Below are positions 5,913 through 45,808 of a DNA stretch of 64,000 nucleotides, piece after piece; the stretch's first letter is position 1, and the number at the start of each line of letters is the position of its first letter. The notes below the pieces were generated by a model. It was not told the origin of the DNA, made no database searches, and saw only the letters and a program-made list of their open reading frames with translations. The DNA comes from Kineococcus rhizosphaerae. GTDB lineage: Bacteria > Actinomycetota > Actinomycetes > Actinomycetales > Kineococcaceae. The stretch lies in NCBI RefSeq assembly GCF_003002055.1, contig NZ_PVZF01000002.1, positions 372,001 to 436,000 on the forward strand, in the 5' to 3' direction. A program made the translations under genes and the position numbers.

Positions 5913-5916
5913 GGCC

Positions 5917-25742: not shown

Positions 25743-25748
25743 CCACCG

Positions 25749-29523: not shown

Positions 29524-30341
29524 TGCGGTTGCTCGCGGCCAGCGACCTGGACCAGACGCTCGTCTTCTCCTCCCGCTCGGCGCAGGCCGACCCCGCCGGG
29601 CTGGTCCCCGTGGAGGAGTACCGGGACGCGACGATCTCCTGGGTCACCCCCGGGGCGTGGTCGGTGCTCGCCGACCTCGTCGCCTCGGGCGGTTTCGTCC
29701 CGGTGACCACCCGGACGCCCGAGCAGTACGCCCGGATCCGGTGGCCGCAGGAGCCGCCGCGGTACGCGGTGTGCGCCAACGGCGGGGTCGTCCTCGTCGA
29801 CGGGGTCCCCGACGCGGACTGGGACACGGCCGTGCGGGAACGGCTGCGGGCCTCGGCGCCGCTGGCGGACGTGGTGGCCGTCCTGACGCGGCTGGCCCGC
29901 GAACTCCTCGCCGTGGTGCCCGGGTCGCAGGAACCGTCGGTGCGGGAGGTCCCCGGCCTGTTCGGCTACGTCGTCCTGCGCGAGGGCCAGCGGGAGGCGC
30001 TCGAGGGCCCCCGGTTGGGCGACCTCACCGCCCGGTTCGACGCGTGGGGGTACGCGGTGTCGCTGCAGGGGCGCAAGCTCTACGCCGTCCCGCGCCCGCT
30101 GACGAAGTCGGCGGCCGTCGCCGAGGTCGTCACCCGTTGCGGAGCGGAGGGTTTCGTCGCCGCGGGGGACTCCCTGCTGGACGTCGACCTGCTGCTGGCG
30201 GCGCAGTCCGCGCGTCGTCCGCGGCACGGGGAACTGCTGCGCACCGGGTGGCAGGACCCGGGCGTGGAACTCACCGACGCGGCCGGGGCCGCGGCGGGTG
30301 AGGAGATCGCCCGCTGGTTGCTGGCCCGGACCGCGGGCTGA
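29523..30341 (+). CDS. HAD-family phosphatase (Ter-associated)
   Basis: The 272-residue product has the HAD nucleophile motif DLDQT at residues 8-12, a VTTRTPEQY motif II-like strand and a late GDSLLDVDLL with the motif IV aspartates. It is a soluble phosphatase of the Cof/SPP-like subgroup. It is the last gene of the Ter-associated enzyme set, so it may dephosphorylate that pathway's product, by inference from position. ATG 29523 overlaps the StiP stop as TGATG. Confidence 0.85.
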   Translation: MRLLAASDLDQTLVFSSRSAQADPAGLVPVEEYRDATISWVTPGAWSVLADLVASGGFVPVTTRTPEQYARIRWPQEPPRYAVCANGGVVLVDGVPDADWDTAVRERLRASAPLADVVAVLTRLARELLAVVPGSQEPSVREVPGLFGYVVLREGQREALEGPRLGDLTARFDAWGYAVSLQGRKLYAVPRPLTKSAAVAEVVTRCGAEGFVAAGDSLLDVDLLLAAQSARRPRHGELLRTGWQDPGVELTDAAGAAAGEEIARWLLARTAG

Positions 30342-30352
30342 GCCGCCCCGGA

Positions 30353-30364
30353 CCGGCGCGCCGG
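30353..30364 (+). terminator. CCGGCGCGCCGG palindrome after the HAD gene
   Basis: A 12-base perfect palindrome begins 12 bases after the HAD stop codon at the end of the Ter cluster. It could act as a weak terminator. No T-tract follows. Confidence 0.3.
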
Positions 30365-30433
30365 CTGTCGTCGATGGCCGCTCCTGGTCCGGGCCCTCAG
30401 CTGATCCTCGGGGGACCACCAGCGTTCTCCCGC

Positions 30434-30527
30434 GACGCAGCGCTGTCAAGGCGTTGCGTCGGAACCGCTTTCCGGGGCGAACCCCGGAAACCCCCGGGGG
30501 TGGTGACCCCCTTCCGGGTGCCTTGAC
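30434..30527 (+). ncRNA. Putative structured leader RNA with pseudoknot potential
   Basis: This part of the 417-base gap before the neprosin operon can fold strongly. Hairpin 1 is GACGCAGCGC (30434-30443) with GCGTTGCGTC (30451-30460), ten pairs including one G-U, and loop TGTCAAG. Hairpin 2 is TTTCCGGGG (30469-30477) with CCCCGGAAA (30482-30490) and tetraloop CGAA. A third possible stem pairs GGGGG (30496-30500) with CCCCC (30507-30511). CTTGAC at 30522-30527 is complementary to GTCAAG in loop 1, which would form a pseudoknot. The layout suggests a riboswitch or other cis-regulatory RNA, but I recognise no known class. The rest of the gap, 30528-30758, shows no coding signal. Confidence 0.4.
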
Positions 30528-30758
30528 GCTCCGTGCTGGGGGGAGTACACCTTCATGCGTTCGGTACGCACGTCGGGGAGCGTCGGGGGGCGCGCCCGGA
30601 CGGCGCCGGGCACGTGCCGGTGCGGACACGTCGGTGTGTCCGCCACCCCCCCGCTCCCCGCCGGGCCGCGAGTCCTCCCCACGTCACGTCCGGGTTCCTC
30701 GACGGTGGCCACCGGGCGCCGGCCCACTTCCGCTGCACGCGAGAACCAGGAGACGGCG

Positions 30759-32012
30759 ATGGACGTCGGCACCATCGAGGAGAACCCGCAGGCCGGTCGG
30801 CGCCGGTCGCTGCTGTCGGCGCCCCACCTCGACCGGCCCCCGCTCGACCGCCCGCCGGGCGACCCGGCGGTCGCCGCGGAGCGGCTCGAGGAGATCCGCC
30901 AGCACCACCTCGACCGCTACCGCCGGCGGGAGGTCGTCGCGGCGACGACCACACCCGCCGGGGACCGGGTCGACTGGGTCCCCGTGGAGTCCCAGGCGCC
31001 GGGGCGGCCCGCCGAACCCCCCGAAGCTCCCGAAACTCCCGAAGCCCCCGAGGCCGCGGGGTCCGGCGTCGGCGCCGAACGGCCCACCCGGTCCGCGGCA
31101 CGGCCGCCCGTCGAGCAAGGGCCACCCGGAACGGTTCCGTTGCTGCGCAAGGACATCGACGCCATGCGGCCGGTCGGCACCCTGCAGGACTACCTGGCCA
31201 AGGGCTTGCACCCGCGCATCGTCACCCCGCCCGACAACCCCAACCGGCCCGAGACCGGCGCCGCGCACGAGTACGCCCACGCCTGGCAGACGGTCACCAA
31301 CTACGGGACCGAGGGGTACGTCAACACCTGGAAACCCTACGTGCAGTGGTCGAACGAGTTCTCCCTCGGCCAGCAGTGGACCGTGCGGGGCACCGGCACG
31401 GGGCTGCAGACCCTCGAGGTGGGCGCGCAGACCTACAAGGACGTCTACGGCGACTGGGAACCGCACCTGTTCATCTACTACACGACCACCGGGTACACGA
31501 GCAGCGGCGACGACGTCGGCGGCTACAACACCGACGTCCGGGGGTGGGTGCAGGTCGCCACGAGTTCCTTCCCGGGCATGCGGGTCGCCGAGAGCGTCGC
31601 CGGTGGCGACCAGTACGACCTGTTCGTCAAGGTGCAGCTGCACCAGGGCAACTGGTGGGTCCGCATCGGGGCCGAGTGGATGGGGTACTACCCGGCCAGC
31701 TTGTACTCCGAGACGGGGCTGCGGTCGATGGCCGACCAGACCGACTGGGGCGGGGAGATCGTCGACGACACGGTCAACCACCCCGAGAGCTCCCAGACCG
31801 ACATGGGCAGCGGCGCCTTCGCCCGCGAGGGGTGGACGCACGCGGCGTACATGCGGAACCTGCGCTACCAGAGCGACGACGCCGGGACCATGACGGACCT
31901 GCAGGGGACCCCGCAGGTCACCGACGCCACCGAGTACGACATCTCCGCCGACTTCAGCGGGACCAGCGGGTGGGGTTCGTACTTCTACTGGGGCGGACCG
32001 GGGGCCGCGTGA
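30759..32012 (+). CDS. Neprosin-family prolyl endopeptidase
   Basis: The 417-residue product has a polar, Pro/Glu/Arg-rich N-terminal region. From about residue 170 it carries a clear neprosin (PF03080/DUF239) domain: QTVTNYGTEGYVNTWKPYV, NEFSLGQQWTVRG, QTYKDVYGDWEPHLFIYY, a GNWWVRIGAEWMGYYPASLY segment and WGGEIVD. Plant neprosin is a glutamate-dependent prolyl endopeptidase, and conserved glutamates are present, though I cannot prove which are catalytic. No signal peptide is visible, unusual for this family. The ATG follows AGGAG by about six bases. It leads a run of overlapping genes rich in Pro linkers that could be its substrates. Confidence 0.8.
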   Translation: MDVGTIEENPQAGRRRSLLSAPHLDRPPLDRPPGDPAVAAERLEEIRQHHLDRYRRREVVAATTTPAGDRVDWVPVESQAPGRPAEPPEAPETPEAPEAAGSGVGAERPTRSAARPPVEQGPPGTVPLLRKDIDAMRPVGTLQDYLAKGLHPRIVTPPDNPNRPETGAAHEYAHAWQTVTNYGTEGYVNTWKPYVQWSNEFSLGQQWTVRGTGTGLQTLEVGAQTYKDVYGDWEPHLFIYYTTTGYTSSGDDVGGYNTDVRGWVQVATSSFPGMRVAESVAGGDQYDLFVKVQLHQGNWWVRIGAEWMGYYPASLYSETGLRSMADQTDWGGEIVDDTVNHPESSQTDMGSGAFAREGWTHAAYMRNLRYQSDDAGTMTDLQGTPQVTDATEYDISADFSGTSGWGSYFYWGGPGAA

Positions 32013-32260
32013 TGCCGGACGGCGCCCCGGACCTGCCGCAGGTCCTGCCCTCGGCGGCCGACGCCGAGTTCGAGTGCGTGCTCGCCGACCCGGCGGCGGC
32101 CCGGGCCCCCTCGACCGGCGGTTCCCCGACGGCGGTGTGCCCGCCCGGGTACGTGCCGCGCCGCAAGCAGACGACGGCGTACCGCCTGCGGGGCAAAGAG
32201 GCCGTCACCGAGGGGCCGCCGCAGGAGAACCCCGGGGGGAGGGACGGTGCCGGGAGCTGA
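32012..32260 (+). CDS. Small protein resembling a neprosin activation peptide
   Basis: This 82-residue protein starts at the ATG overlapping the neprosin stop (TGATG) and overlaps the next gene by 14 bases. Near its centre is AVCPPGYVPRRKQTTAYRL. Plant neprosins carry an N-terminal activation domain with a closely similar CPxGTIPIRRT segment, and that domain is absent from the neprosin gene upstream. The small protein could be the activation or inhibitory part encoded separately. This is inference from motif and position. It has two cysteines and no membrane segment. Confidence 0.5.
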   Translation: MPDGAPDLPQVLPSAADAEFECVLADPAAARAPSTGGSPTAVCPPGYVPRRKQTTAYRLRGKEAVTEGPPQENPGGRDGAGS

Positions 32261-34589
32261 GGTGCTCGGCGGACCGGCCCGCCGGGCCCTGCTGGGGATC
32301 GACCTGGAGGTGCTGCACCGCGTCCTGCCCTTCCGTCCCGGGGTCCCCCGCGCCGAGGTCGGCGTCCCGGTCAGCCCCACCGGGCGGGTCGACGACACCG
32401 TCCTGTTCGAGGACCCCCTCGATCCCGCGGCGGTGTCCTACCTGCCGCGGTACCGGTTGCGGGTGCTCGCCGAGACCGGTCGCTACGACATCGCCACGAC
32501 CCTGGTGGACGGGCTGTGGCGCACGGTGTTCGGTCTGGAGAGCTACCCCGCCCCCGAAGTGGACCGCCCCGGCGCGGCGATCCTGCCGCACGAGCTCTCC
32601 GTCACCGTGTCCACCCGCGGGGAACTCGCCCGCGAGTACCCCGTGGCCGAGCTCGACCCCGGCCTGGGGCCGACCCGCAACACCCCGCAGGTCGTGCTGC
32701 TGCTGACCCTGCCGGAGCGGGACGCGCTGCTGCGGGCGTTCACGCGCGACGAGGACCAGGCCCTGCTCGTGGTGCACCGCAGCGTCTCGGTGGCCGTCCC
32801 CGCCCACCGGCTCCCGCCACGTCCCGACCTGGCCGTCGCCCTCGGGCCGGACGTCCTGGCCACCCACGTGATCCTGCCCGACCTCCTCGTGGACCCCGAC
32901 CCGGGCCCTCACCCGGAGCCGGTGCAGGAGCTGGTCGAGCACGTCGAACGCGTGCCGGTCGACCGGCCGCGACCGGAGGAGACCGGCACCGCCGTCGTCA
33001 CCGCCGGCCTGGCCCGGGCCGCCGGGCTGCACGTGGACTTCCGCCAGCAGCTCACCGTCGACCGGGGCTTCGCCGGTGCCCTGCGCCCCGTCGACGTGGG
33101 CGCCGGTGCGCTGCTGCGACGGTTCCAGTCCCCCGAGGTGGCCGAGGTCGGCGAGGTCGCCGAGGTGGCTGACCTCGCCCGCCTGGAGCGGTTCCGGGAC
33201 GTGGTGCGCGACCACCGGGGGCTGCCCGGTCGGGGACCGGTCCGGGGCTGGCCCCGGCCCTTCCCGAAACCCTTCCCGTGGCCCTTCCCCGCACCCGTCC
33301 CGGACCCCGATCCCGACCCCGGTTTCGTCGTGACCAGCTCGAGGCAGGACTGCGGGATCGCGCTGCGCTTCGACGTCGCCACCCACCCGTACCTGTTCCC
33401 CTCCGGGCAGCCGCCCACGACGAAGGGCTTCGCGACGTTCGTCGTGCCCTGGCCCCCCGAGGGACCGGCCTCGCGCGGGCACGTCTACCTCCAGGACCAG
33501 GACTGCGGCAACGTCTTCCTGCACCTGCCCGACGTCTTCCTCGTGGGCCGGGCGGGGGAGGCGCCGTACGGGCCCGAGCTGTCGTTCACCGTGGGCCGCG
33601 CGAGCGCGCCCGACGGCACGGAGCAGGCGCTGGCGCTGGTCAGCGCGCACCTGGTGCCGCAGACGTCCGCGGCCCGGCTGGCCGACGCCCGGCGGGCCCT
33701 GGCCGCGCACGTCCCCGCCGGTGGGGCCCCCGTGGAGCTGCGACCGGCGATCCAGCCCGCCACCTGCCGCCTGGACCTGCCCGGCGGTCCCGTGACGACG
33801 GCCGCCGCCCCCGACCTCGTCGCCGGCTGGTGGATCGCGGAGAGCTTCTCCTTCGAGGCGTTGCGGGAGGTCTACGCCGTGCTCGGGTCCGGGGCGGGGA
33901 ACCCGCTGCGCGGGCGGGTCGACGTCACGGCCGGGGACGCCACCCACCAGGTGCCCGTGGAGCTGCGGCTGGACCGGCCCGCGGTGCCCCCGCTGAGCTG
34001 GACCGAGACGCCGCGCGAGGACGGGTCCTGGACCGTGACCCTGACGAACGTCGGTACCGACCCGCTGAGCGTGCCCGGACCCCCGGCGTGGGTCGTCACG
34101 GACGCCGGCCCGGTCCCGGCCACCGTGACGGGCCCGACCCCGGCCACGATCGCCCCGGCCGCGACCCTGGACCTGGTCGTCACCGGTCCCCCCGGGGCGA
34201 GCGACGTCCAGCTGGACGTGACGGGCGTCCGGGTCGTCGTGACCCCCGAGGCCGTCGTGGCCCAGACCCTGGACCGGCGCGTCGAGCGCCTGCCGCGCAG
34301 GGTGAAGCTGCTGACGACCGCCGCCGGCCTGGGACGCACGGGCGACCCGGCGCAGGACCTCAGCGCCATCGGCGTCGAGTTCGAGGGGGTCGCCGGCGCG
34401 GTGCTGCTCGACGCCGACACCCTGCAGCTCGACGTCGCCGTCCCCGTCCCGCTGCGCGACTGGCTGCTCGACCGCGGGGAGGGGACGTACTCGTTCCGGC
34501 AGACGCTCGTCCACGTCGCGGGCACCAGCACGGCCGACACCGCGTGGCGGTCCTCGGACAGCAGCCTCCTCACGTTCCCGCAGGCGTAG
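32247..34589 (+). CDS. Large beta-rich protein A of the neprosin cluster
   Basis: The 780-residue product is of unknown function. Its N-terminus has LFEDPLDPAAVSYLPRYRLRV (about residues 53-73), a Tyr-Leu-Pro motif that recurs in variant form in the other large proteins downstream. A Pro/Phe/Trp linker, RPFPKPFPWPFPAPVPDP, sits near residues 334-351. The second half is strand-rich (DGSWTVTLTNVGTDPL, VTGPPGASDVQLDVTG) and suggests Ig-like modules. There is no signal peptide or membrane span. GTG 32247 lies inside the end of the small upstream gene. Protein-protein scaffolding is possible, but no function can be assigned. Confidence 0.65.
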   Translation: MPGAEVLGGPARRALLGIDLEVLHRVLPFRPGVPRAEVGVPVSPTGRVDDTVLFEDPLDPAAVSYLPRYRLRVLAETGRYDIATTLVDGLWRTVFGLESYPAPEVDRPGAAILPHELSVTVSTRGELAREYPVAELDPGLGPTRNTPQVVLLLTLPERDALLRAFTRDEDQALLVVHRSVSVAVPAHRLPPRPDLAVALGPDVLATHVILPDLLVDPDPGPHPEPVQELVEHVERVPVDRPRPEETGTAVVTAGLARAAGLHVDFRQQLTVDRGFAGALRPVDVGAGALLRRFQSPEVAEVGEVAEVADLARLERFRDVVRDHRGLPGRGPVRGWPRPFPKPFPWPFPAPVPDPDPDPGFVVTSSRQDCGIALRFDVATHPYLFPSGQPPTTKGFATFVVPWPPEGPASRGHVYLQDQDCGNVFLHLPDVFLVGRAGEAPYGPELSFTVGRASAPDGTEQALALVSAHLVPQTSAARLADARRALAAHVPAGGAPVELRPAIQPATCRLDLPGGPVTTAAAPDLVAGWWIAESFSFEALREVYAVLGSGAGNPLRGRVDVTAGDATHQVPVELRLDRPAVPPLSWTETPREDGSWTVTLTNVGTDPLSVPGPPAWVVTDAGPVPATVTGPTPATIAPAATLDLVVTGPPGASDVQLDVTGVRVVVTPEAVVAQTLDRRVERLPRRVKLLTTAAGLGRTGDPAQDLSAIGVEFEGVAGAVLLDADTLQLDVAVPVPLRDWLLDRGEGTYSFRQTLVHVAGTSTADTAWRSSDSSLLTFPQA

Positions 34590-34599
34590 GGGGACGGCC

Positions 34600-36567
34600 G
34601 TGTTCACCGGACTGCCCGACCTCGGCCGGCCCGACGGGCCGCGCGGTTTCGCCGTCCACGACGAACCGGGGGCGGTGTGCGTGCTCCCGACGCGCCTGAG
34701 CGCGCACCCGCTGCGGATCGACCGGTACGTGCAGGACCGCGGCGACCGCGTCACGCGCTTCACCCTGGTGCAGGCGGGTTTCGAGATCGGCGGGGACGAA
34801 CCGGGCCCGTCCCGGGTCCGCCCGGCCCCGCTGGGGTCGGGGTGGGTCCGGCTCAGCGCCCCGGCGGCCCTCGACGTCCCCGCCGCCGCCCTCGCCCCGC
34901 AGCCCTGGGACGCCGCGACCGGGGTCGTGCTGCCCACCCTGGTCCGGCTCGACGACGTCACCGGCGAACTGCTCGCCGGGGCCGTGCGGGGCGGGCTGCA
35001 GACCCTCGGCGCCGTCGTGCTCGTGACCGTGCCCGGCGTCGCCGCGCGGTGCCCGGGGCAGGTCACCGTCGACGCGCGACGGTTCCTCGCCGACGTCGGG
35101 ACCGACCCCGTGGCCCCGGACGACCTCCTCGACCGCACCGCCGCCGGCTGGGCCGGGGTGTCCGTCGCGGGCGGGCCGCAGGACCCGCGGACCTGGGCCG
35201 CGGCGGTGCTGGACCGCCTCGTCGCACGGCTCGCGGTGCCCGCCCTGGACGCGGACCGCGAGGGCTGGCGCTTCGCGGCCGACCCCGGCGGGACGCCGAC
35301 GTTCTCCTGGGACCTGACCGGACCCTGCGCGGCGCGACGGCTGCTCCGGCTGGCCTGCGACCCGCTGCGGGGAACGGCCGCGGTCGTCACCGACCACGTC
35401 GTGGCCCCGCTGAGCGACGGCCGGGAACGGGTCCTCGTCCACAGCACCCTGCCCGGCCTGCCCGCGGGGGTGCTGGCCGCCACCGCGACCCTCACCGCCC
35501 CCGCGACCCCCGCCCGGCCGTTCCCGGCCGAGGTGACCGCCGACCTGCGACCCCCCGGCCCCAGCGAGGTCGTCCTGGCGCTGGCCCCCGGCGAGACGCT
35601 CGCCTACGACCTCACCGGCGCCGCGGCCCTGGAGACCGACCGCGGCCCCCGCACCGTCGAGGGCGCCGCCCGCCCCGTCGCCGAGGACCGCACGCCCGTG
35701 CTCACCCCCGCCGACCTCGGGATCCGGGTCCTGCCCGTGCACGCGACCCGCGCCCTGCTCGACCTCGCCGACGTCACCGTCAGCGCCCGCACCACCCGGC
35801 TCGTGCGCGACCCCGCGGTGTGCACCGCCTCCGTCGTCCTGCGGGCCGGGGCGGGGGACGGCTGGCTGGCCGTCCCCCGCGACGCGCACCAGGTGAGCCT
35901 CACGGCGCTCGCGAGCGCCCACGCCGACCCCGCGCGGACCGTGGGCCGGGACCTGCCCGACGCGGAGGTCTGGCTCGACCCGTTCTCCTTCCCCGACGCC
36001 CCGTGGGCCGACCCCGGACCCCGGCCCGAACCGGTCCTGGTCGCGGAGGTGGACGGGCTGCGGGCGGCCGGGACGGCGACGGACCCCGACTGGCGGTTCC
36101 TGCCGCTGCGCGCCGGGGTCGTGCGCGACGGGACGGGACAGCCCCAGCTCACCCTCGTGGAGGCGGCCGGGCTGGCCTGGCTGACCGTCGGCACCGCCCT
36201 GGAGCTGTCCGACGCCGCCCAGGACGCGCTGCGCACGCGGGCCCTGGCCGCGGGCGCGCCCGCCGGGCTGCGGCTGGCCCCGGCACCCTTCGAGGTCGAC
36301 GGCGCGGCCGAGCTCCGGCTCGCGCGCGACGGCTCGGACACCACCCTGGCCACGGCCGTGACGTCGGCGACCACGAGCCAGGACGCCGCGTTCAGCGTCC
36401 AGCTCGCCCCCGACGACCTGGCGCCGGTGCACCGGGCGCTGGCCGGTGAGACGGGCCTGCTCCGGGTCCGGTACGTGCTGCGGGTCGCCGCCTCCGGCCC
36501 GCTCGCGCAGGCCCTGGCCGCCGGGCCCGTCACCGTCGAGACCGACGCCGCCACCTGGCGGCCCTGA
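34600..36567 (+). CDS. Large protein B of the neprosin cluster
   Basis: The 655-residue product is Ala/Val/Asp-rich with no recognisable enzyme motif, signal peptide or membrane span. Near residues 492-525 it has DPDWRFLPLRAGVVRDGTGQ followed by PQLTLVEAAGL. This parallels the WYYLPTRPHLSVVDGTPVFQ region of protein D, so B probably contains the same domain placed at its C-terminal side. The GTG at 34600 is ten bases after the stop of protein A. Function is unknown. It belongs to the same closely spaced gene run. Confidence 0.6.
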   Translation: MFTGLPDLGRPDGPRGFAVHDEPGAVCVLPTRLSAHPLRIDRYVQDRGDRVTRFTLVQAGFEIGGDEPGPSRVRPAPLGSGWVRLSAPAALDVPAAALAPQPWDAATGVVLPTLVRLDDVTGELLAGAVRGGLQTLGAVVLVTVPGVAARCPGQVTVDARRFLADVGTDPVAPDDLLDRTAAGWAGVSVAGGPQDPRTWAAAVLDRLVARLAVPALDADREGWRFAADPGGTPTFSWDLTGPCAARRLLRLACDPLRGTAAVVTDHVVAPLSDGRERVLVHSTLPGLPAGVLAATATLTAPATPARPFPAEVTADLRPPGPSEVVLALAPGETLAYDLTGAAALETDRGPRTVEGAARPVAEDRTPVLTPADLGIRVLPVHATRALLDLADVTVSARTTRLVRDPAVCTASVVLRAGAGDGWLAVPRDAHQVSLTALASAHADPARTVGRDLPDAEVWLDPFSFPDAPWADPGPRPEPVLVAEVDGLRAAGTATDPDWRFLPLRAGVVRDGTGQPQLTLVEAAGLAWLTVGTALELSDAAQDALRTRALAAGAPAGLRLAPAPFEVDGAAELRLARDGSDTTLATAVTSATTSQDAAFSVQLAPDDLAPVHRALAGETGLLRVRYVLRVAASGPLAQALAAGPVTVETDAATWRP

Positions 36568-36591
36568 TCCCCGCTGCGAGAGGAAGACGAG

Positions 36592-38790
36592 ATGCTCAAG
36601 CTCGACGACGTCCGGCTGCTCGAAGGCCACCAGATCCACGGTGACGACGACCCCGGCCGGTCGAACGTGTTCTACGTCATGCCGCGCTACCCGCGGATCG
36701 CACGGCTGGAGACCGGGGGACTGGCCCTGCGGTTCGTCGAGTACGACGCGATCCGCCGCCAGGGGGAGAGCCAGTTCGGGGGTTTCGTCGCCTTCGACAC
36801 CGACCTCAGCTTCCTGCCCGGGACGATGGACCTCATCCGCAAGGGGCTGCAGGACGAGCTGGACCACCGGTTCAGGCCGTTCGGGGGGGACGCGCTGAAA
36901 CCCGACATCCAGACCGTCCCGTGGCTGAGGGGCGCCGTGAAGCTCCTCCTGCAGCAGGACGGCAAGATCGTCGAGAAGCTCAGCGGTTCCACCGTCCCCT
37001 CGCTGACCGGGTACAACACCGCCTGCTTCTTCCTGGAGCTGACCGTCCTCGGGACGGCGATCTTCAAGGAGACCCTGAGCCGGGGGACCGCCTCGGCCAT
37101 CCAGGTGATCTACGACCTCGACCACTACGTGCGCCTGCCGCAGTCGCACGCGTGGGGCCACTGGCACGCGGACTCGTTCTACTCGTTCTTCCAGGACGTC
37201 GACACCGAGGACAACTTCTGGAGCGAGGACAGCTACACCGAGATCACCAACTCGACGCGGTACAAGAACGAGGTCACCGAGACCCACTTCGACCTCGTCG
37301 CCGACCCGGGCCTGACGGGGGAGCAGCAGGCCGAGTTCGACGCCGCCATGCGGGCCTCGATCATGAGCCAGCTCGACGCGGCCGTGCAGCGCAACCTCCT
37401 CGAGGCCGTCCAGGCCGTCGACCCGAACGTGAAGGGCTGGACCGAGGACCAGGACATCGAGGACGTCCACCGGGAGATCTCCACGACGCAGATCTCCGAC
37501 GTCCGCGTGGAGTGGACCGAGGCCAAGGCGGTGATCCGCACCATCCACCCGCAGGGGATGCTGCCGACCGTCACCAGCCTGCAGGACACGAACGGCGCCG
37601 CCCTGAGGTGGGAGGACTACTACTCCAGGATCAGCGTCGACGAGTTCCTGCGCTCCCTGCTCGTCTCGGTCCGGGTGGACGCCGACTTCCCGGGGTACGG
37701 CATCACCCTCGTCGAGGTGAAGATCCGCTACCCGCACGGCGAGAACGCCAAGACCGTCGAGGCGACCTTCACGAAGGACGACGCCGGCACGCCCCAGAAG
37801 GCGGAGTTCATCGTCGCGGACAAGATCCGGACGTTCTTCTGGTCGTACACGGTGAACTTCACCGGGGACACCCCGCCGTGGACGTCGCCGGAGGTCGAGG
37901 ACGACGGGACGGACCTCAACGTCAAGGTGCACGACCTGCCGGTCCTCAAGCTCGACGTCGTCAACGGGGACATCAACTTCGAGCAGGTCGCCCGGGCCCG
38001 GGTCCGGGTGCGCTACGAGGGGGGCGAGCACCCCGTCGAACGGTTCTTCAACCTCACCGAGCAGGACGGCACGCACCAGCTGCTGGAGGTGATCGGCGAA
38101 CCCCGCGCGGGGGACGTCACCTACCAGACCACCTACACGATGAAGGGTGACGGCCGGGAGATCACGGGCCCCGAGCTGCGGACGGACGCGAGCACCATCT
38201 CCGTCGACGACCCGTTCCGGGCCCTGCGCACCGTCACGTTCCAGGCCGTGGGGGACCTGACGGACGACATCGACGACGTGACCGTGCAGGCCGTCTACGA
38301 GGAGCCCGCGAACACCTACCGCCGCGACTTCGCGGTGACCCTCAGCGGCACCGGCAAGCCGTTCGACGTCTGGACGTTCCCGACGGTCGACGAGGCGCAG
38401 GGCAAGCTCTCCTACACCGCGACCGTGCGCCACCGCGACGGCACGAGCGAGGACGTCGAGGTCACCGACGCCAAGGGCACCCGCTTCGAGCTCGGCCGCA
38501 AGTTCGTCGACAAGCTCGACGTCGCGATCGTGCCGGACCTGCTGGACTGGACGAAGCTGAAGCTGGTCAACGTGTCGCTGAAGTACCTGCACAGCACCCC
38601 GCCGAAGACCGACGACTTCCTCTTCCGGTCGGGGGACACCGGCGCCAGGACGTGGTCGGTGTTCCTGCCGAAGGGCGAACCGGCCTCCTACAGCTACAGC
38701 GCCACGTTCTTCCTCCTCGACGGCAGCAAGAAGACCGACGCGAAGGACGACGCCACCGAGGAGTCCCTGTTCCTGGACCTTCCCGCCTGA
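36592..38790 (+). CDS. Large beta-module repeat protein C of the neprosin cluster
   Basis: The 732-residue product starts with NVFYVMPRYPRIARLETGGL (about residues 24-43) and FGGFVAFDTDLSF, equivalent to the N-terminal domain of D and E. The middle has AVIRTIHPQGMLPTVTSLQ, matching RRSIYPQGHL in D. The rest is a series of about 95-residue beta modules, for example TVTFQAVGDLTDDIDDVTV plus a WTFPTVDEAQGKLSYTATV strand pair. No signal peptide is seen. The ATG follows GAGAGGAAG. Repeated modules and missing catalytic motifs point to a structural or binding role. Confidence 0.65.
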   Translation: MLKLDDVRLLEGHQIHGDDDPGRSNVFYVMPRYPRIARLETGGLALRFVEYDAIRRQGESQFGGFVAFDTDLSFLPGTMDLIRKGLQDELDHRFRPFGGDALKPDIQTVPWLRGAVKLLLQQDGKIVEKLSGSTVPSLTGYNTACFFLELTVLGTAIFKETLSRGTASAIQVIYDLDHYVRLPQSHAWGHWHADSFYSFFQDVDTEDNFWSEDSYTEITNSTRYKNEVTETHFDLVADPGLTGEQQAEFDAAMRASIMSQLDAAVQRNLLEAVQAVDPNVKGWTEDQDIEDVHREISTTQISDVRVEWTEAKAVIRTIHPQGMLPTVTSLQDTNGAALRWEDYYSRISVDEFLRSLLVSVRVDADFPGYGITLVEVKIRYPHGENAKTVEATFTKDDAGTPQKAEFIVADKIRTFFWSYTVNFTGDTPPWTSPEVEDDGTDLNVKVHDLPVLKLDVVNGDINFEQVARARVRVRYEGGEHPVERFFNLTEQDGTHQLLEVIGEPRAGDVTYQTTYTMKGDGREITGPELRTDASTISVDDPFRALRTVTFQAVGDLTDDIDDVTVQAVYEEPANTYRRDFAVTLSGTGKPFDVWTFPTVDEAQGKLSYTATVRHRDGTSEDVEVTDAKGTRFELGRKFVDKLDVAIVPDLLDWTKLKLVNVSLKYLHSTPPKTDDFLFRSGDTGARTWSVFLPKGEPASYSYSATFFLLDGSKKTDAKDDATEESLFLDLPA

Positions 38791-38809
38791 CCCGTCGCGA
38801 GGTGACGTG

Positions 38810-41050
38810 ATGCTGCTGCTCGACTCCCGCTGCGCCGTGATCGACGGTGTCTCGGTGTTCCCCGACCACGCCGACCCGGCGCAGTGGTACTACCTGCCGA
38901 CCCGTCCCCACCTGTCGGTCGTCGACGGGACACCGGTGTTCCAGCTCATCGGCTTCCGCGGGGCCCGCACCGGTGGCCTGTTGTCCTTCGACTGCGACCT
39001 CTCCCTGGGGCAGGCGCAGGTCGACGCCCTGCGGGGGAAGGTCAAGACGCAGTTCGACCTCGACGTCGCACCGCGGCTGGCGCCGGTCCCGCCCGTCGAC
39101 GGGACCGTCCACCTCATCAGCATGGGGACCGACAGCTCCGCACCCGCGGGCGAGGCGCCGGCCTTCGTCGTCGACGCCGTCCACAACGCGAAACCCTCGC
39201 TCGTCGACGACAACACGGCCTCGTTCTCGGTCCTGCTCGACGAGACCGGTTACGCCCTCGTCGAGGGGACCCTGGACGCGGCGATCCTGCCCGTCGCCGT
39301 CGTCTACTCCCTCGACCACCTCGCCCTGCGCCCGGCGTACCGGGTGACGCTGTCGATCGACTGGGACCGGGTGCAGAAGCACCTCGACGAGACGTTCGGG
39401 GCGAAGGCGTGGATCTTCTCCGCCGACATCTCCCGGGCCGTCGACGAGCTCGACGACTCCAAGGCCATCGACCTGCGCGCCGACACGTTCGTCACCGAGG
39501 ACACCGAGGGGGTCGTCGACCGCCGCGACGCGGCCCTGGCCCAGGTCAAGGCGATGATCACCTCCGCGTTCTTCGAACCGAGCCTGCCCCCGTGGAAACC
39601 CGACGAGCCCTCGGGGTGGGTCCAGGACCTCGAGGCGCTGGGGGACTTCGCCACGAGGACGGCCGCGGCCGCCGCCGGGGGACCGGCGGTGACGAACCCA
39701 CCGGTCACGTTCTCCTACAAGAAGACCGACTACACGCGGATCGACCGGAAGAACCTCGACGTCACGTTCTCCGAGCGGACAACGGTGCGCCGCTCGATCT
39801 ACCCGCAGGGGCACCTCGCGTCGCTGTTCTCGGCCATCAGCGCCTCACCGGAGCTCAGGGGCCGGCTCGTCCGGGAGATCAGCCCGGACGAGTTCTTCAC
39901 CAAGCGCAAGCTCCAGGTCCTCTACCGACCCAACCTCGGGGCCCCCTTCATCGACAGCATCGACGTCAAGGCCCGCTACGGCGGGCTCACGCGCAACGCC
40001 CTGCTGACCCCCGACGACTGGTCCACGACCTTCGAGTGGCTCAGCGACGTCCACGACGGGGTGGTGACGAAGGACGTCGACGTGTCCTACGACGTCCGGT
40101 TCAAGGCCGCCGACACCTCCGAGCGACCCGGCCAGCTCACCAGTGCGCACCGACCCGCCGACGCCGACCTCGTCTCGCTGCTGCCCGAGGACGAGGTGTT
40201 CACCGTCCGCTCGGTCGCGGTCCTGGCCGAGCGGATCCCCTGGACCCGGTTCGACACCGTCGAGGTCCACGTCCGGTACCGCGACGCGGACCACGGCGTC
40301 GACCAGCAGGACGTGTTCCGGCTCGTCGAGAAGGCCCCCTCGACCGTGTGGCCGGTGTTCGTGGTCGACCGCGACCACCGGGTCTACGAGGTCCGCACCG
40401 TCCTGCGCGCGGTCGACGGCAACGACGTCGACTCCGGCTGGGCGACGAGCGACCTGGAGGAGATCCAGGTCCGCAACCCGTTCCGGGCGCGGACGCTGGC
40501 CGTGCTGGCGAACGTGCGGTGGACCGAGGTCAGCGACGTGTTCGTCGACGTGACGTACGAGGACCCCGCCCACGACGTCCTCGTCCAGGAAACGTTGCAC
40601 CTGACCCAGACCGTGACCCCACCGCCGTTCGTGGTGGACCTGCGCGACCCCACCCGCACCGGGATCGAGTTCACGGTGACGTTCAGCTACCTCGACGGCC
40701 GGGTCGTCCAGACCCCGCCGTCGACCACCTTCGCGCCCCGCATCACCGTCGACCCCGCGATGCGCGGTCACCGGGTCGTGCAGGTGCGGCCACCGGCGGA
40801 CTGGACGGCGAAGGGCGTCGAGCGGGTCACCGTGGAACTGCGGTTCGAGGACTTCGCCGAGAACCTCAGCTTCGCCGACCGCTTCGAGCTCGACGGCCCC
40901 GGCACGACGGCGCGGTTCGAGTTCGACTACGCCGACGTGACCCGGGACCGGTACGAGTGGCGCGAGACGGTCCTCTACCGCAACGGCCTGCGGCACACCA
41001 CCGACTGGACGACCGGGGCCGACGCCGTCCTCGTGCCGAGACTGCCGTGA
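38810..41050 (+). CDS. Large beta-module repeat protein D of the neprosin cluster
   Basis: The 746-residue product is a close structural paralogue of protein C. DHADPAQWYYLPTRPHLSVV (about residues 19-38) is followed by GGLLSFDCDLSLGQAQV. ERTTVRRSIYPQGHLASLF lies near residue 325. Three to four beta modules make up the C-terminal half, such as TLAVLANVRWTEVSDVFVDV and YLDGRVVQTPPS. ATG 38810 was preferred over GTG 38807 because AGG at 38800 gives better spacing. There is no signal peptide. Function is unknown; C, D and E share one architecture and probably assemble together, which is inference. Confidence 0.65.
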   Translation: MLLLDSRCAVIDGVSVFPDHADPAQWYYLPTRPHLSVVDGTPVFQLIGFRGARTGGLLSFDCDLSLGQAQVDALRGKVKTQFDLDVAPRLAPVPPVDGTVHLISMGTDSSAPAGEAPAFVVDAVHNAKPSLVDDNTASFSVLLDETGYALVEGTLDAAILPVAVVYSLDHLALRPAYRVTLSIDWDRVQKHLDETFGAKAWIFSADISRAVDELDDSKAIDLRADTFVTEDTEGVVDRRDAALAQVKAMITSAFFEPSLPPWKPDEPSGWVQDLEALGDFATRTAAAAAGGPAVTNPPVTFSYKKTDYTRIDRKNLDVTFSERTTVRRSIYPQGHLASLFSAISASPELRGRLVREISPDEFFTKRKLQVLYRPNLGAPFIDSIDVKARYGGLTRNALLTPDDWSTTFEWLSDVHDGVVTKDVDVSYDVRFKAADTSERPGQLTSAHRPADADLVSLLPEDEVFTVRSVAVLAERIPWTRFDTVEVHVRYRDADHGVDQQDVFRLVEKAPSTVWPVFVVDRDHRVYEVRTVLRAVDGNDVDSGWATSDLEEIQVRNPFRARTLAVLANVRWTEVSDVFVDVTYEDPAHDVLVQETLHLTQTVTPPPFVVDLRDPTRTGIEFTVTFSYLDGRVVQTPPSTTFAPRITVDPAMRGHRVVQVRPPADWTAKGVERVTVELRFEDFAENLSFADRFELDGPGTTARFEFDYADVTRDRYEWRETVLYRNGLRHTTDWTTGADAVLVPRLP

Positions 41051-41063
41051 GGGAGGGGCCGTC

Positions 41064-44000
41064 GTGCTGAGCCTGGAGAAGCCGCTCGTCGTGGACGGCA
41101 TCACCGTCTACCGCGACCACGCCGACAGGAGCCGGTTCTGGTACCTGCCCGGCCGGGTCGCCCTGGCGCACCGCACCGACGGCGCGCCGGCCCTGTCGCT
41201 GCTCACCTACCGGCCCGCCGAGGCCGGCGGGGTGCAGCGCGGCGGCGGCTTCATGCAGTTCGAGAGCGCCCTGGAACTGCCGCGGACGACCCTGAGCCGG
41301 ATCGAGTCGCGGGTCTCGTCCGAGCCCGGGGTCGAACTGCCCGTGAGCCTGGCCCCGCCGCCCTTCGAGACCGGGACCGTGCAGTGCATCGCGCTGGACC
41401 TGCAGGGCCCGGGCGGGACCTCCGCGGGACCGGCCCCGGAGGGGGCGTTCCGGGCCACGGAGCAGATCCTCGGTGCCACCGTCCCCACGATGGACGCGGC
41501 GAACCGGGCCGCGTTCAACCTGGTCCTCAGCCAGGAGGGCGCCGTCATCGCCGAGGCGGCGCTGAGGGAGGGTGCGACCCCGTTCGGCGTCGTCTACTCG
41601 TTGCAGTACCTCGCGCTGCGGCCCACGCTCGACGTCACCGTCACCGCCCACCTCGACCAGGTCTACACCGGTCTGACCGCGGGGCTGGAGGGGCAGTACG
41701 TCTACTTCAAGGTCGGGCTGGAGGCCGCGCTGGAGTGGTTGCACTCCCGGGGGGCCATCGAGATCGTCGTGCACGACTTCACCGGCGACCTGACCCAGGC
41801 GGACCAGGAGAAGTGGGCGCTGCAGCTGTTCACCGACCACCTGCTGAGCACCTGGTTCACGCCGACCCTCGCACCGGGGAAGACGGCTGCGGGGACGCCC
41901 GCGCCGAACCCGACGCCGAACCCGACGCCGAACCCGACGCCGAACCCGACGCCGAACCCGACGCCGAACCCGACGCCGAACCCCGCCCCCCCTCCGAACC
42001 CCGCCCCCGCACCGGGGCCCGGTGCACCTCCCGCCCCGGGCGGGACCGGCCGGCCCGCGGTCCCCGAGGCCGCCCCCTCCGGGGTGGTCACCGCCCCCGT
42101 GGCGCCGGCGCCGGCCACGCTGGAGGTCCGCAGCAGCACCCCCGTCCCGCTGCCCGCGGGTCAGGCGGTGACGTTCACCGCCGCCACCACCGGCACGGTG
42201 GAGACCCTGCACGTCGCCGGGCCGGGGGCCCGCGTCCGGGTCGACGGTCAGGACGTCGCGCTCGGCCCGGACGGGAACCTCACGCGCGACGTCGCCGCGG
42301 GGGGTTCCCTGACCGTCGACGTCACGTGGGACGCGCCCGCGTCCGCTGAGGTGTTCTGCCTGTTCTTCGACATGGACCAGCCGGCCGAGGACGGCTGGTC
42401 GACGCAGCCGCCGAGCGCCGGGTTCCGCTCCTACGTCGAGAACACCACGACCGACCCCCGGTTCCGCTCCGCGACGGGCGTCCAGCGCGTCGAGGGGGAC
42501 GGTTCCTGGACCGGTCCCGAGGTGGGGGCCGACCGGCTGACCCGCTGGATCGACGGGCTGCCGGCCCCGCAGCGGGTCGAGGTCCGCGGGTACGCCAGCC
42601 ACGAGCACGCGACCCCGCAACCCGACCCCGCCCGCGCCGCCCACAACGCGCGGTTGTCGCGCCGCCGCCTCGACGTCGCGGTCGCGCTCGTGCGGCGCGC
42701 CGGCGGCGACCCCGTCGTGCAGGAGGCCCTGGGTGACACCGTCGCCGCGGCCAGACCCGGCAGCCACGGGCCCTTCGGGGGCGACCCGGACAACCGCGTC
42801 GCGCAGGTCCGGGTGGCCGGGGGCGGGACGACGTCGAGCTGGAGCGGCGTGCTGCGACGAGCCGCCGCCGTGAACCCGACGCCGAACCCGAACCCGACGC
42901 CGAACCCGAACCCGACGCCGAACCCGAACCCGACGCCGAACCCGAACCCGACCGAACCCGAACCCCACGCCGAACCCGAACCCGAACCCGAACCCCACGC
43001 CGAACCCGAACCCGACGCCGAAGCCGGGCGAGCTCCCGACCCTCGCCGCGTTCAAGCTCCGGTTCGTCCGTCAGGACGAGCGCAAGGACCTGGTGCTGAA
43101 GTACCAGCGCACCGACGCCGTCCGCCGGACCCTGGCCCCGCAGGGTTTCCTCGGCCTGCTCGCCGCGGACCTCGCCGCCGCGGAGAAGGTCGTCACGCTC
43201 GTCGACCTGGACCACCCCTTCTTCCGCGAGCTGACGGTCACCGCGAGGATGCCCGGGGACGTCAGCGCCCTCGGGCTCACCGAGGCCCACCTGTCGATCG
43301 ACTACGGCCCGGCGAGCCACGTCCGGCACGGCGACCTCGTCCTCACCCCGCAGCACGCCGACCCGCAGACGTTCACGACGTTCCTCGACGAGGAGCTGAC
43401 CCTGAGCTACGACGCCCTCCTCGAGCTCACCTTCGACGCCACGTCCGGCTGGGACGGCGACGCGCTGCGCTACGCGGTCCCGCTGCCCGGCTCGACCGAC
43501 CGGGACGTCGTCGTCAACCCCTACGAGCACCTCGACCTGCGCACGTACACCGTCCAGCCGGGCGACGTGGACTGGGACGTCGTCGCCTCGATCGACGTCC
43601 AGCTCAGCGCGACCGGCTACGGCGACCGCGAGCTGCGGCACCTGGTGACCCTCGAGGAGGGCACCCCGCCGCAGGTCTGGAAGCTGCGGGGCGCGTTGCC
43701 CGCCCCGGCCGACCGGGGGGTGCGGGTCGCCTACCGGCAGGTGCTCACCGACGGCACCGTCGAGCGCACCGGGCCCGTCGACGTCGACCTCACCCTGCTG
43801 CGGGTCGACGACCTGTTCACCGACGCCCTGGACCTCGTCCTCGTGCCGTCCTTCGTCCCGGCGGGCATCGACCGGGTGATCGTCGACATCGAGTACCACA
43901 GCGACCTGCCCACGCCCTACGACCGCACGGTCCGGGAGGAACTGCCGGGCACCGCGACCGAACCGCTGCGGGTGCACCTCGCCCTGCGCGACCCGACGCA

Positions 44001-44097
44001 GCGCGAGTACTCCGTGCGGTTCACGTTCACCGGGCCCGGGGTGTTCGACCAGCGCGCCTTCGTGCGCACGAGCGAGGAGGTGCTCCCGATCCGGTGA
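41064..44097 (+). CDS. Large protein E: YLP domain, OmpA-like domain and beta modules, frameshifted
   Basis: The N-terminal part has DHADRSRFWYLPGRVALAHR (residues 18-37) and GGFMQFESALEL. A linker of NPTP repeats (41907-41978) follows, then a beta domain and an OmpA-like segment with VEVRGYASHEHA, NARLSRRRLDVAVALVRRAG and DPDNRVAQVRV (about residues 510-590). A second NPNPTP linker (42873-43020) follows. At about 42951-42953 one repeat is two bases short and the frame changes. The homologous C-terminus, with RRTLAPQGFLGLL and more beta modules, continues in the other frame to TGA 44095-44097. Corrected length is about 1011 residues. The shift may be real or an assembly error in the repeat. 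Confidence 0.6.
41907..41978 (+). repeat. Six copies of a 12-base repeat encoding Asn-Pro-Thr-Pro
   Basis: The unit AACCCGACGCCG occurs six times without mismatch, in frame in gene E, and encodes (NPTP)6. The product would be a rigid polyproline-like linker. Perfect tandem copies of a 12-base unit are prone to length change by slippage, always in steps that keep the frame. Confidence 0.95.
42873..43020 (+). repeat. Imperfect 18-base repeat encoding Asn-Pro-Asn-Pro-Thr-Pro
   Basis: The unit AACCCGAACCCGACGCCG is repeated with variants in gene E. The copy at 42939-42954 has 16 bases instead of 18 (GACCG in place of GACGCCG), which causes the frame change described for that gene. After the short copy the downstream frame again reads NPTPNPNP and then KPGELP, showing the linker continued in the ancestral gene. 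Confidence 0.9.
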
Positions 44098-45011
44098 GGA
44101 CCGCCCCGGCCCTCGACGCCGCCTGCACCCGGGGTCTGGCCCGGTGGCGGGCCTGCCCGGGCGTCGACCCGCGCGACGTCGACGCGTCCGGGGCCGAGCT
44201 GGCCGACGTCCTCGCCCCGCTGGCCCGGTCCGCGTGGCCGGAGGTGGCGTGGCGCTGCGGCGTGCTCACCGCGACGGGCTACCCCGTCGAACTGGCCTGG
44301 GCCTCGCGCGACGCCGCCGTCCGCTGGACCTGCGAGGTCGCCGGCCCCGAAGCGCCCCAGGCGGGGCGGCTGGAGCGGGCCGGGCAGCTGGCCGGGGTGG
44401 ACGTCGCGGCGTGGGGAGCCGCGCAGCGGGGTGGGCCGCTGCGCTACGGGGCCTGGCTGGGGGTGCGGTGGCTGGCCGGCGCGCGCCGGGCCAAGGTCTA
44501 CGCCGAACTGCCCACCGGGACGCTGCCCCCGGGGTCGTGGACGCCGGCGGCGCGGGACCTGGCGCGCGCGGTCCTGGACCTGACGTGGCGGATGGCCGGG
44601 GTGAACGACGACGGCTCGGTCGAGCTGTACGCCCGGGTGCCCGAACCGTCGTGGGCGCAGCTGCGGGCGGTGTCGGCGACGGTGGGCGACACCGGCGCCC
44701 TGGTGGCCGGGGTCCGTGGACTCCTGGGCGAGCGGGGCGAGCACCTGCCCCGGCCGTCGGGGCTGAGCCTGGCGGTCTCACCGGCGGGGGTCCCGCTGGC
44801 GCTGACCTGGTTCACCGTCGCCGCCCGCGTGTGGTCGCGCGACGGGTCCGTCGGCCGGTCCCTGGAACGGGTGGTCCCCGCGCTGCGCGCCGGGTCGTAC
44901 CCGGCGCTGGCGGCCGGCCCCGCGGACGGGCGCTGGCGGCACGGGGTGGTCGGGGCAGGGGTGGACGCGGCCGGCCGGACGTGGTTCCAGGCCGGTCTGC
45001 GGCCGACGTGA
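44094..45011 (+). CDS. Unknown protein F of the neprosin cluster
   Basis: The 305-residue product is Trp/Arg/Ala-rich and has no signal peptide. I see no confident family. Strand-like segments such as PVELAWASRDAAVRWTCEVA, RRAKVYAELPTG and GSVELYARVPEP, spaced with helices, would fit an alpha/beta barrel, but no catalytic motif is clear. Its GTG overlaps the stop of protein E by four bases and its stop overlaps protein G by four bases, so the three are translationally coupled. A functional pairing with the cyclase-like protein G is suggested only by this coupling. Confidence 0.65.
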   Translation: MRTAPALDAACTRGLARWRACPGVDPRDVDASGAELADVLAPLARSAWPEVAWRCGVLTATGYPVELAWASRDAAVRWTCEVAGPEAPQAGRLERAGQLAGVDVAAWGAAQRGGPLRYGAWLGVRWLAGARRAKVYAELPTGTLPPGSWTPAARDLARAVLDLTWRMAGVNDDGSVELYARVPEPSWAQLRAVSATVGDTGALVAGVRGLLGERGEHLPRPSGLSLAVSPAGVPLALTWFTVAARVWSRDGSVGRSLERVVPALRAGSYPALAAGPADGRWRHGVVGAGVDAAGRTWFQAGLRPT

Positions 45012-45808
45012 ACGACCCCCCGCCCAGCGTCGTCCGCTGGGCCGACGGGCGCACCGCGCAGGACGCGAACGGCTTCGTGACGGGGTTGCTCGTGCGCGAG
45101 CTCCGGCTGGCCGGGCACCGGGCCCCGGCGGGCTGGCTCGACGCGCTGGGCCGCTGCGCCCGCCCCGACGGGTCGTTCGGCTTCTGGCCCGAGGGTGGGC
45201 GGCCCGCGTGGGCTCCCGAGCTGCCGCCCGACAGCGACGACACGGCCGTGCTCCTGACCGAGCTGCACCTGGCGGGCCGCCTCGACCGCACCCGGACGCG
45301 CCGGGTGGCGTGCCGGACGCTGGGCAACCGGCGGCTGCGCCGGGTCCTGGACCCCGGACCGCCCTGGATCCGGGTGGGGACCTTCACGACGTGGCACCGG
45401 GGCCGTGACGCGGGGGTCGTCGACCTGACCGCCGTGGCCAACGTCCTGGCCCTGCTGCGGGTGACGGGGCTGCAGGCGGTCCCGGGGTTCGAGGAGTCCA
45501 GGGCGTCGGTGCTCGCGGGGGCGCGGTGGGCGGGGTCCTCCCGGGCCCGGTGGGAGAGCCTGTCGCCGTTCTACCCCGAACCGGACGAGCTGCGGCGGGC
45601 GCTGGTGAACGCCGCGCGGTGCGGGGTCGAGGGGCTCGCCGGGGCCGTCGCCGCGGTGGCGCGGGCCTGCCCCCGCCGCGACCCCGACGTCGTGTGCTCC
45701 CGGGCCTACGGACCACCCACCTGGCACAGCCCCGCGCTGGCCGCCCTGCGCCGGGACGGGCCGGTGGCGGGCGCCGCCACCGGCCGGGGGACGACCGCGG
45801 GACCCTGA
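45008..45808 (+). CDS. Alpha/alpha-toroid (prenyltransferase/squalene-cyclase repeat-like) protein G
   Basis: The 266-residue product has GSFGFWPEGG near residue 55, a QW-like motif. DSDDTA at residues 75-80 has the form DxDDTA used as the acid motif of class II terpene cyclases and kept in related toroid proteins. ANVLALLRVTGLQAVPG is a further helical pair. The protein is too short for a full class II cyclase (beta-gamma didomain), so it may be a single-domain relative or a binding protein rather than an enzyme. It ends the gene run that begins with neprosin. Overlap with F implies coupling. Confidence 0.65.
   Translation: MNDPPPSVVRWADGRTAQDANGFVTGLLVRELRLAGHRAPAGWLDALGRCARPDGSFGFWPEGGRPAWAPELPPDSDDTAVLLTELHLAGRLDRTRTRRVACRTLGNRRLRRVLDPGPPWIRVGTFTTWHRGRDAGVVDLTAVANVLALLRVTGLQAVPGFEESRASVLAGARWAGSSRARWESLSPFYPEPDELRRALVNAARCGVEGLAGAVAAVARACPRRDPDVVCSRAYGPPTWHSPALAALRRDGPVAGAATGRGTTAGP

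Follow-up and report, generated by a model that had tools for sequence, protein, structure and literature searches.

What joint task could be served by nine tightly packed genes of which only the first encodes a protein of a familiar family? This question is raised by an operon of Kineococcus rhizosphaerae that occupies positions 30759-45808 of the window, that is, the whole stretch of 64,000 nucleotides analysed here (contig NZ_PVZF01000002.1, positions 372,001 to 436,000). All its genes are on the plus strand; the order is neprosin, then a gene of 82 residues, then A, B, C, D, E, U and cyc. The set is a genuine, conserved system, of which no description was found; its enzymatic core is predicted to be a prenyltransferase-terpene cyclase pair, U and cyc, tied to scaffold proteins. 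The original prediction of nine closely spaced or overlapping genes is borne out, with spacings from -14 to 24 nucleotides (in order -4, -14, 10, 24, 16, 13, -4 and -4), and a gap of 417 nucleotides separates the operon from the preceding gene. The features are as follows, with the leader ahead of the operon given last.

30759..32012, plus strand: neprosin, glutamic endopeptidase of 417 residues (Pfam PF03080, E 6.4e-45); accessory gene
32009..32260, plus strand: 82-residue proline-rich gene with a CPPGYVPRRK stretch; accessory, co-occurs with neprosin
32247..34589, plus strand: protein A, 780 residues, with YLPRYRLR and HLPD motifs; conserved first core gene
34600..36567, plus strand: protein B, 655 residues; C-terminal part homologous, by profile comparison, to the N-terminal domain of D
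36592..38790, plus strand: protein C, 732 residues; the scaffold subunit retained most widely, also found in C-U-cyc triads
38807..41050, plus strand: protein D, 747 residues; N-terminal alpha/beta domain with WYYLP, PQG stretch and Ig-like beta-sandwich modules
41064..44097, plus strand: protein E; N-terminal FWYLP domain, linker, OmpA-like insert, linker, PQG/beta modules
41898..41983, plus strand: 12-bp tandem repeat coding for the first Asn-Pro-Thr-Pro linker of E
42354..42824, plus strand: OmpA-like insert of E (the likeness is suggestive only), conserved in 8 E proteins
42872..43026, plus strand: 18-bp/6-bp tandem repeat coding for the second linker of E; the frame changes here
44094..45011, plus strand: U, 305 residues; DMATS-type (ABBA-fold) aromatic prenyltransferase-like, from predicted structure and profile comparison
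45008..45808, plus strand: cyc, 266 residues; one-domain class II terpene-cyclase-like with DSDDTA, from profile matches
30345..30758, plus strand: intergenic leader ahead of the operon; modest RNA structure is predicted, confined to the first half

When the window proteins were scanned against Pfam, PHROGs, NCBIfam and PADLOC, Neprosin was the sole solid family among the operon proteins. C, D, U and cyc had no matches in these scans, even below cut-off, and proteins A-E did not reach the curated family cut-offs of Pfam and NCBIfam. The sub-threshold matches of A were to NCBIfam choice_anch_D (E 0.0052; 17.3 bits, the cut-off being 45) and Trypan_PARP (E 0.85), those of E to UmpB (E 0.13) and, over its proline repeats, to a number of families (best E 4.8e-8), and that of neprosin to Phage_TTP_16 (E 0.15). 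Matches of operon proteins in PHROGs were non-significant (B, E 0.041 over 12 residues; the 82-residue gene, E 0.12). A known defence system was set aside, PADLOC having given none for the window proteins, and so was a phage origin, since profiles of D, C and U matched no viral contigs and D matched no phage records. A literature search, with most subscription papers outside its reach, returned no description of the cluster among the matches listed.

The conservation of the system is apparent from its recurrence. A scan for C in 84,980 species genomes revealed nine loci beyond the window, in Cellulomonas, Marmoricola, Nakamurella, Hydrogenophaga, two Lysobacter and metagenome-assembled genomes (MAGs) labelled Nitrospira, Sphingomonadaceae and Kuenenia; as the scan requires short exact peptide patterns, this number is a lower bound. 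Mapping of the window proteins on these loci showed the order A-B-C-D-E-U-cyc in all eight that are long enough, namely the window and seven others, with flanks fetched 10 kb upstream of C and the Sphingomonadaceae and Kuenenia loci left out. Loci with the full seven-gene core carry the labels Actinomycetota, Pseudomonadota and Nitrospirota, and this ordered recurrence across phyla agrees with the earlier claim that A-E form one set fitting an assembled complex. Within this frame, B is split into two genes in several loci, and the Hydrogenophaga and Nitrospira loci hold a second E paralogue, and in both the fetched stretch stops before cyc is complete. At 6.6 kb, the Sphingomonadaceae contig ends inside E. 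The Kuenenia-labelled locus consists of A, B, a C-like protein ending like E, U and cyc; at L011 10001-12271 the C-terminal part of this C-like protein is closer to E than to C, and separate D and E genes were not found there. In the Nitrospira MAG (L009 4274-4951), protein A is apparently interrupted, with a first frame of 226 codons and a second matching stretch at 5662-6948.

The system is rare and scattered, yet retained in the genus Lysobacter. Protein C was present in one of 59 relatives, the window's own genome, and in none of 10 congeners, and the D profile matched two of 396 genomes of the window's phylum, own genome included. In the phylum of Lysobacter, four of 398 genomes were positive (centre included, one marginal), and within the genus the cluster was found in 15 of 20 genomes, again counting the centre. 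Lysobacter includes strains that are readily handled in the laboratory. Among the same 396 genomes, the U and cyc profiles matched precisely the two with D, G000 and G112; since one of them, G000, is the genome of the window itself, this co-occurrence gives one independent case beside the loci. In G112, A-B-C lie at one contig end and D-E-U-cyc at the start of another contig. Extra marginal matches of U in G417 (E 7.8e-4) and cyc in G187 (E 4.9e-4) were discounted, no core homologue lying nearby (tblastn, E 1e-3), as was a marginal A8 match in G825, near which no core gene was found at the same threshold. In the tree of C, the four actinobacterial rows group together at 95/98 and Hydrogenophaga stands next to Lysobacter at 96/96; the two caspase-carrying loci described below are not sisters.

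The five large proteins had been proposed as paralogues that share Tyr-Leu-Pro-like motifs. The motifs were confirmed in all five, as were the PQG motif and beta modules common to C, D and E, in each of which beta-sandwich modules come after an FYxLP-type domain at the N-terminus. The paralogy was upheld in part. By profile comparison, C, D and E are full-length paralogues (hhalign probability 100 for both pairs; C vs D, E 1.1e-45 over 698 columns; C vs E, E 3.9e-45), and B shares one domain with D, its C-terminal part aligning to the N-terminal domain of D at 92% (E 5e-7) with FLPL on YYLP. Protein A reached 6% and 12% in hhalign and 0.2% against B, so five equal paralogues are rejected for A, and its kinship to the other scaffold proteins is suggestive only. 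A model of D from a 21-row alignment (predicted local distance difference test score, pLDDT, 77; predicted template modelling score, pTM, 0.42) has an N-terminal region that is mixed alpha/beta and varies in confidence, a stretch at residues 254-314 that is poorly predicted, and beta-sandwich modules after about residue 370 that are well predicted (mostly pLDDT of about 90). Searched against the PDB and a viral structure library, it matched generic Ig-like arrays, with template modelling (TM) scores below 0.2 among the PDB matches listed, and a complement/alpha-2-macroglobulin-like identity of D was rejected on these grounds. Comparison of C and D with the sequences of solved structures gave nothing meaningful.

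Protein E raises a point of its own. Its reading frame changes within the GAACCC tandem repeat at 42872-43026, and since the Cellulomonas homologue is a single open frame, E in the window is either frame-shifted or misassembled. The insert between its two linkers looks OmpA-like by eye; its best PDB profile matches (RsiG, E 0.067; YfiB, E 0.1) are not significant and OmpA was not matched in Pfam. A tRNA-Leu called by ARAGORN inside E (41472-41562, minus strand) is probably a false positive.

The gene U, an unknown protein in the original prediction, can now be assigned a prenyltransferase fold. Its AlphaFold2 model from nine sequences (pLDDT 90.1, pTM 0.89) shows five beta-hairpins between helices, in keeping with the ten-stranded beta barrel of repeated alpha-beta-beta-alpha units that marks this family, and the best 50 of 100 Foldseek matches in the PDB at E 0.001 or below are all aromatic prenyltransferases (best E 9.5e-11, probability 1.00, query TM 0.53-0.77). 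In hhalign, U matched two DMATS proteins at 94%, rising to 96% (E 2.5e-9) with a deeper alignment; sequence searches of the PDB found none with nine rows and FgaPT2 at E 0.77 with eleven. Residues E66, R77, K134-x-Y136 and E177-x-Y179 are invariant in all 12 U proteins, and in hhalign E66, R77 and K134-x-Y136 coincide with E, R and K-x-Y in one of the DMATS proteins, whereas the second has Q at the position of R77. The K-x-Y correspondence rests on hhalign alone, a direct MAFFT alignment of U with DMATS having left that strand unaligned. In FgaPT2 the glutamate activates the acceptor and the arginine, lysine and tyrosine residues bind the diphosphate. Like the DMATS-type enzymes FgaPT2, CymD, IptA, PriB and FunA, U combines the fold (probability 1.00) with aligned E, R and K-x-Y; unlike them, it has R-x-K-x-Y changed to x-x-E-x-Y, and its identity to the best 50 of 100 matches is 12-18%. 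By predicted fold and profile comparison, U is predicted to be a DMATS-type (ABBA-fold) aromatic prenyltransferase-like protein.

The last gene was said to hold DxDDTA, and it does so as DSDDTA. DxDD is the protonation motif of class II terpene cyclases, and DxDDT is present in all 12 cyc proteins; a thirteenth, toroid-like protein of Paracoccus has DSDST. An 11-sequence profile of cyc matched drimenol synthase 9mhs at E 5.2e-5 on the whole sequence and at 8.1e-4 on the matching stretch, which spans about 150 residues. Further matches were 9m7d (E 7.3e-4 whole, 0.011 stretch) and, at E 0.0072, squalene-hopene cyclase 1gsz; the DxDDT region aligned to DDLDTTS of 9mhs. Against three squalene-hopene-cyclase-like proteins, hhalign gave 40% and later 69%. 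The similarity extends to the profile match and the aligned DxDDT of HAD-type drimenol synthase and squalene-hopene cyclase, but cyc is a free-standing protein of 266 residues with neither a HAD nor a second toroid domain. Of nine cyc members, one matched VMAP-M20 of Pfam (E 6.5e-4), a domain of conflict systems. Profile comparison predicts that cyc resembles one-domain class II terpene cyclases.

Taken together, the U-cyc pair looks like a split NctPC. According to a 2026 review, NctPC is a fusion of an ABBA-fold prenyltransferase and an MstE-like one-domain terpene cyclase that adds a C20 (geranylgeranyl) group to the Trp of a peptide and then cyclises it (PMC13290415). U followed by cyc reproduces the order and the predicted activities in two genes overlapping by 4 nucleotides, a likeness to NctPC and MstE drawn from description, not from sequence; in contrast to NctPC, U and cyc are separate genes and their constant partner is a scaffold protein of at least 700 residues. 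No small precursor gene common to the loci was seen among genes of at least 60 residues.

How small the system can become is indicated by divergent loci. Searches of plasmids returned three records for D, four for C, three for an E paralogue, one for U and two for cyc. In Azospirillum AZO_p5, Calothrix plasmid3 and the pseudomonadote G773, C, U and cyc stand in a row and A, B, D and E are not recognisable; this triad is taken as the minimal core. In Calothrix (L068 13804-21033), it is followed by a free-standing C-type N-terminal domain, a 1494-residue protein sharing a C segment, and a protein that resembles endonuclease/exonuclease/phosphatase by eye and has no Pfam match. In Azospirillum (L027 10481-18285), three small genes directly precede it, one annotated as HBL/NHE family, and in G773 a 1198-codon open frame lies directly behind it (L069 12150-15743, minus strand). 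The cluster of Pararhizobium p2 comprises one A-like, two C-like, one D-like and one E-like gene with three further genes, none recognisable as U, so that U was rejected as a member of that cluster; G514 has a similar layout with one C. Paracoccus pNSM5a combines several C/D/E-like genes with the 698-residue DSDST protein, which has a sub-threshold squalene-hopene-cyclase match (E 0.076). At L017 2020-27872 of this plasmid, the C/D/E-like genes lie amid EAD1-trypsin, EAD1, NTPase, phospholipase D, tyrosinase and trypsin genes, the NTPase matching AAA_16 above cut-off and STAND models below theirs; the protease and tyrosinase genes recall a phenoloxidase cascade.

In comparison with this core, the accessory genes turn over. 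The first gene of the window is indeed a neprosin-family endopeptidase: beyond its Pfam match, it has both catalytic glutamates known from pitcher-plant neprosin, E188 and E297, in an alignment to 7zu8 (numbering as in the accessible part of PMC9343461). Only its catalytic part (residues 155-416) aligns to 7zu8, no pro-domain family was matched in Pfam, and hydropathy revealed no evident signal peptide. Its N-terminal part carries a PPGTVP stretch, and the 82-residue gene, which is without Trp, shares by eye a PPGxVPxxRK-like stretch with it. A homologue of the 82-residue gene, 58.7% identical, lies next to the Cellulomonas neprosin. The idea that this gene is a detached activation peptide remained unproven, with no Pfam match up to E 1, and neprosin with the 82-residue gene did not recur as a core, since within the fetched flanks both were found in only two of the eight long-enough loci (window and Cellulomonas). 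Hydrogenophaga and Nitrospira instead have, lying between their two E genes, a member of the caspase family (Pfam E 1.9e-23 and 3.4e-19) with SGHG and DSCHSGG. In the crude gene lists of Marmoricola, the two Lysobacter and Nakamurella loci, no hydrolase was seen between core genes. Just upstream of the Marmoricola cluster start, and divergent from it, is a patatin-like phospholipase gene (L004 4073-5182, minus strand; Pfam E 2e-14).

What, then, might the system do? The explanation that we tentatively prefer, as plausible though far from assured, is that of terpenoid-modified scaffolds with exchangeable effectors, best read as a conflict system for defence or competition. Proteins A-E would form a multi-subunit scaffold, probably cytoplasmic, the subunits checked having no evident signal peptide by Kyte-Doolittle means (hydropathy only). 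U would take the prenyl group of a prenyl diphosphate and attach it to an aromatic acceptor, after which cyc would protonate and cyclise the attached chain, as the fused NctPC does on peptide Trp. The likeliest acceptor would be an aromatic residue of a scaffold subunit, with C as the best candidate because minimal loci recognisably hold C-U-cyc alone. The bulky hydrophobic group may anchor or assemble the scaffold at a membrane; the scaffold would carry or release an exchangeable enzyme, neprosin here and caspase elsewhere. The conflict role is suggested mainly by the swapping of enzymes around a constant core, which is among the signs of conflict systems in the main text of Kaur et al. (2020; PMC7159879). 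That text describes EAD/MoxR-vWA/STAND systems, to which the present one is similar in its constant core with exchangeable hydrolases, in the EAD1, trypsin and STAND-like NTPase genes next to one divergent relative, and in the weak VMAP-M20 match of one cyc; it differs in that MoxR, vWA, VMAP-C and NTPase were not found in the window operon. Components of the ternary MoxR ATPase/vWA type were likewise absent, both among the operon proteins and among ten scanned proteins flanking them. The main text of PMC7159879 contains none of the words neprosin, tyrosinase, prenyl, terpen and squalene. A bolder proposition, which we regard as somewhat doubtful, is that bacteria use a split NctPC-like pair to link a cyclised terpenoid covalently to an aromatic residue in full-size scaffold proteins, and that the multi-protein platform thereby anchored at the membrane holds and releases swappable effectors in conflict; no counterpart of such a system was found described.

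The conserved gene set and order, the homologies, the predicted fold of U, the kept residues of active-site type and the turnover of accessory genes are what the analysis shows; catalysis, substrate, anchoring at a membrane, cellular location and conflict role are inferred. Several observations weigh against the preferred explanation. Pfam Trp_DMAT was matched by four of nine U members (best E 0.04), below the family cut-off, and the lysine of the DMATS R-x-K-x-Y is E177 in 12 of 12 U proteins, its arginine not being kept; the binding of diphosphate by U may therefore be altered or lost. A nine-sequence cyc profile found no cyclase in the PDB, and no Pfam cyclase was matched by nine cyc members. 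The Pararhizobium and G514 clusters are without detectable U or cyc in the stretches searched, and a single divergent plasmid locus supplies the EAD1/NTPase context. As a test of location, hydropathy is crude, with peak 19-residue means up to 1.69; the highest means (1.6-1.7, in B, the C-terminal part of E and cyc) lie at the edge of the range of membrane segments. Finally, the cluster is present in 15 of 20 Lysobacter genomes and, where two Lysobacter loci were read completely, the core genes have no hydrolase between them; this pattern resembles a trait of the lineage more than it does a mobile defence island.

Other explanations share parts of this evidence. U and cyc might make a small diffusible meroterpenoid, a prenylated and cyclised amino-acid derivative that A-E store, traffic or detoxify, the locus then being a biosynthetic gene cluster with unusual carriers. 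An aromatic prenyltransferase and a terpene cyclase are a usual meroterpenoid pairing, and many characterised relatives of U use free Trp, His or small aromatics, as judged from PDB titles of the best 50 of 100 matches. However, no other tailoring, transport or synthase gene common to the loci was seen in the crude gene lists, and U-cyc is constantly accompanied by scaffold proteins of at least 700 residues, down to C alone, so that this route appears rather doubtful. The changes in the DMATS diphosphate-binding motif, with E for K in 12 of 12 U proteins and loss of the R of R-x-K-x-Y, might also mean that U and cyc have lost catalysis and serve the scaffold as recruited subunits with a structural or ligand-sensing task. 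This is unlikely, because neutral decay would not preserve E66, R77 and K134-x-Y136 of U and DxDDT of cyc, invariant in 12 of 12 proteins each across several phyla.

In a further account, a cell-surface or envelope structure of adhesin- or matrix-like type, with no conflict role, would use Ig-like modules as spacers and an OmpA-like part to hold peptidoglycan. The modules of the D model do resemble tandem-repeat adhesins (6xi3, 4p99) and E has its OmpA-like insert; but that match is not significant (E 0.1), the Ig-array matches are generic, with TM below 0.2 among the matches listed, and the absence of evident signal peptides by hydropathy also speaks against it, which together make an envelope structure distinctly improbable. 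The original prediction itself favoured one assembled complex or filament, with neprosin as the protease that may process its proline linkers. Although neprosin heads the operon with its catalytic glutamates kept and E has long NP-rich linkers, neprosin is confined to two of eight long-enough loci and is without an evident signal peptide by hydropathy. The proline linkers of E, which would be the substrate of the protease, are not conserved: proline-rich linkers persist in loci without neprosin, for instance Marmoricola, and the first of the two linkers consists of Gly/Ser repeats in both Lysobacter loci. Plant neprosin, moreover, is reversibly inactivated above pH 5 according to the accessible part of PMC9343461. 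The protease-centred model is not the best one, and linker processing is very improbable.

The leader ahead of the operon, proposed as structured, shows a modest fold signal in its first half (z -3.06 at 30345-30560) and none in its second (z -0.10 at 30560-30758), and no promoter match. A known RNA leader was ruled out, Rfam matching nowhere in the window, and the best blastn match of the leader to the Cellulomonas locus (37 nucleotides, E 6e-4) is located elsewhere in that locus. Upstream on the same strand (21471-30341) lies a tellurium-type stress module with AIM24, TerC/DUF475, C-C bond lyase, PRTase_2+TRSP and StiP+PELOTA genes, together with one gene that has no Pfam match and looks HAD-like by eye. 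A link to this module was dropped, as three of its proteins matched none of nine loci within the fetched flanks (tblastn).

For the biology of these bacteria, modification of the scaffold by U and cyc, if true, would mean native terpenylation of full-size bacterial proteins, not short peptides, and a chemistry of lipid anchoring other than cysteine prenylation. If the scaffold is not so modified, five large proteins whose order is kept across phyla and which have no match in PADLOC-DB still constitute an undescribed multi-gene system.

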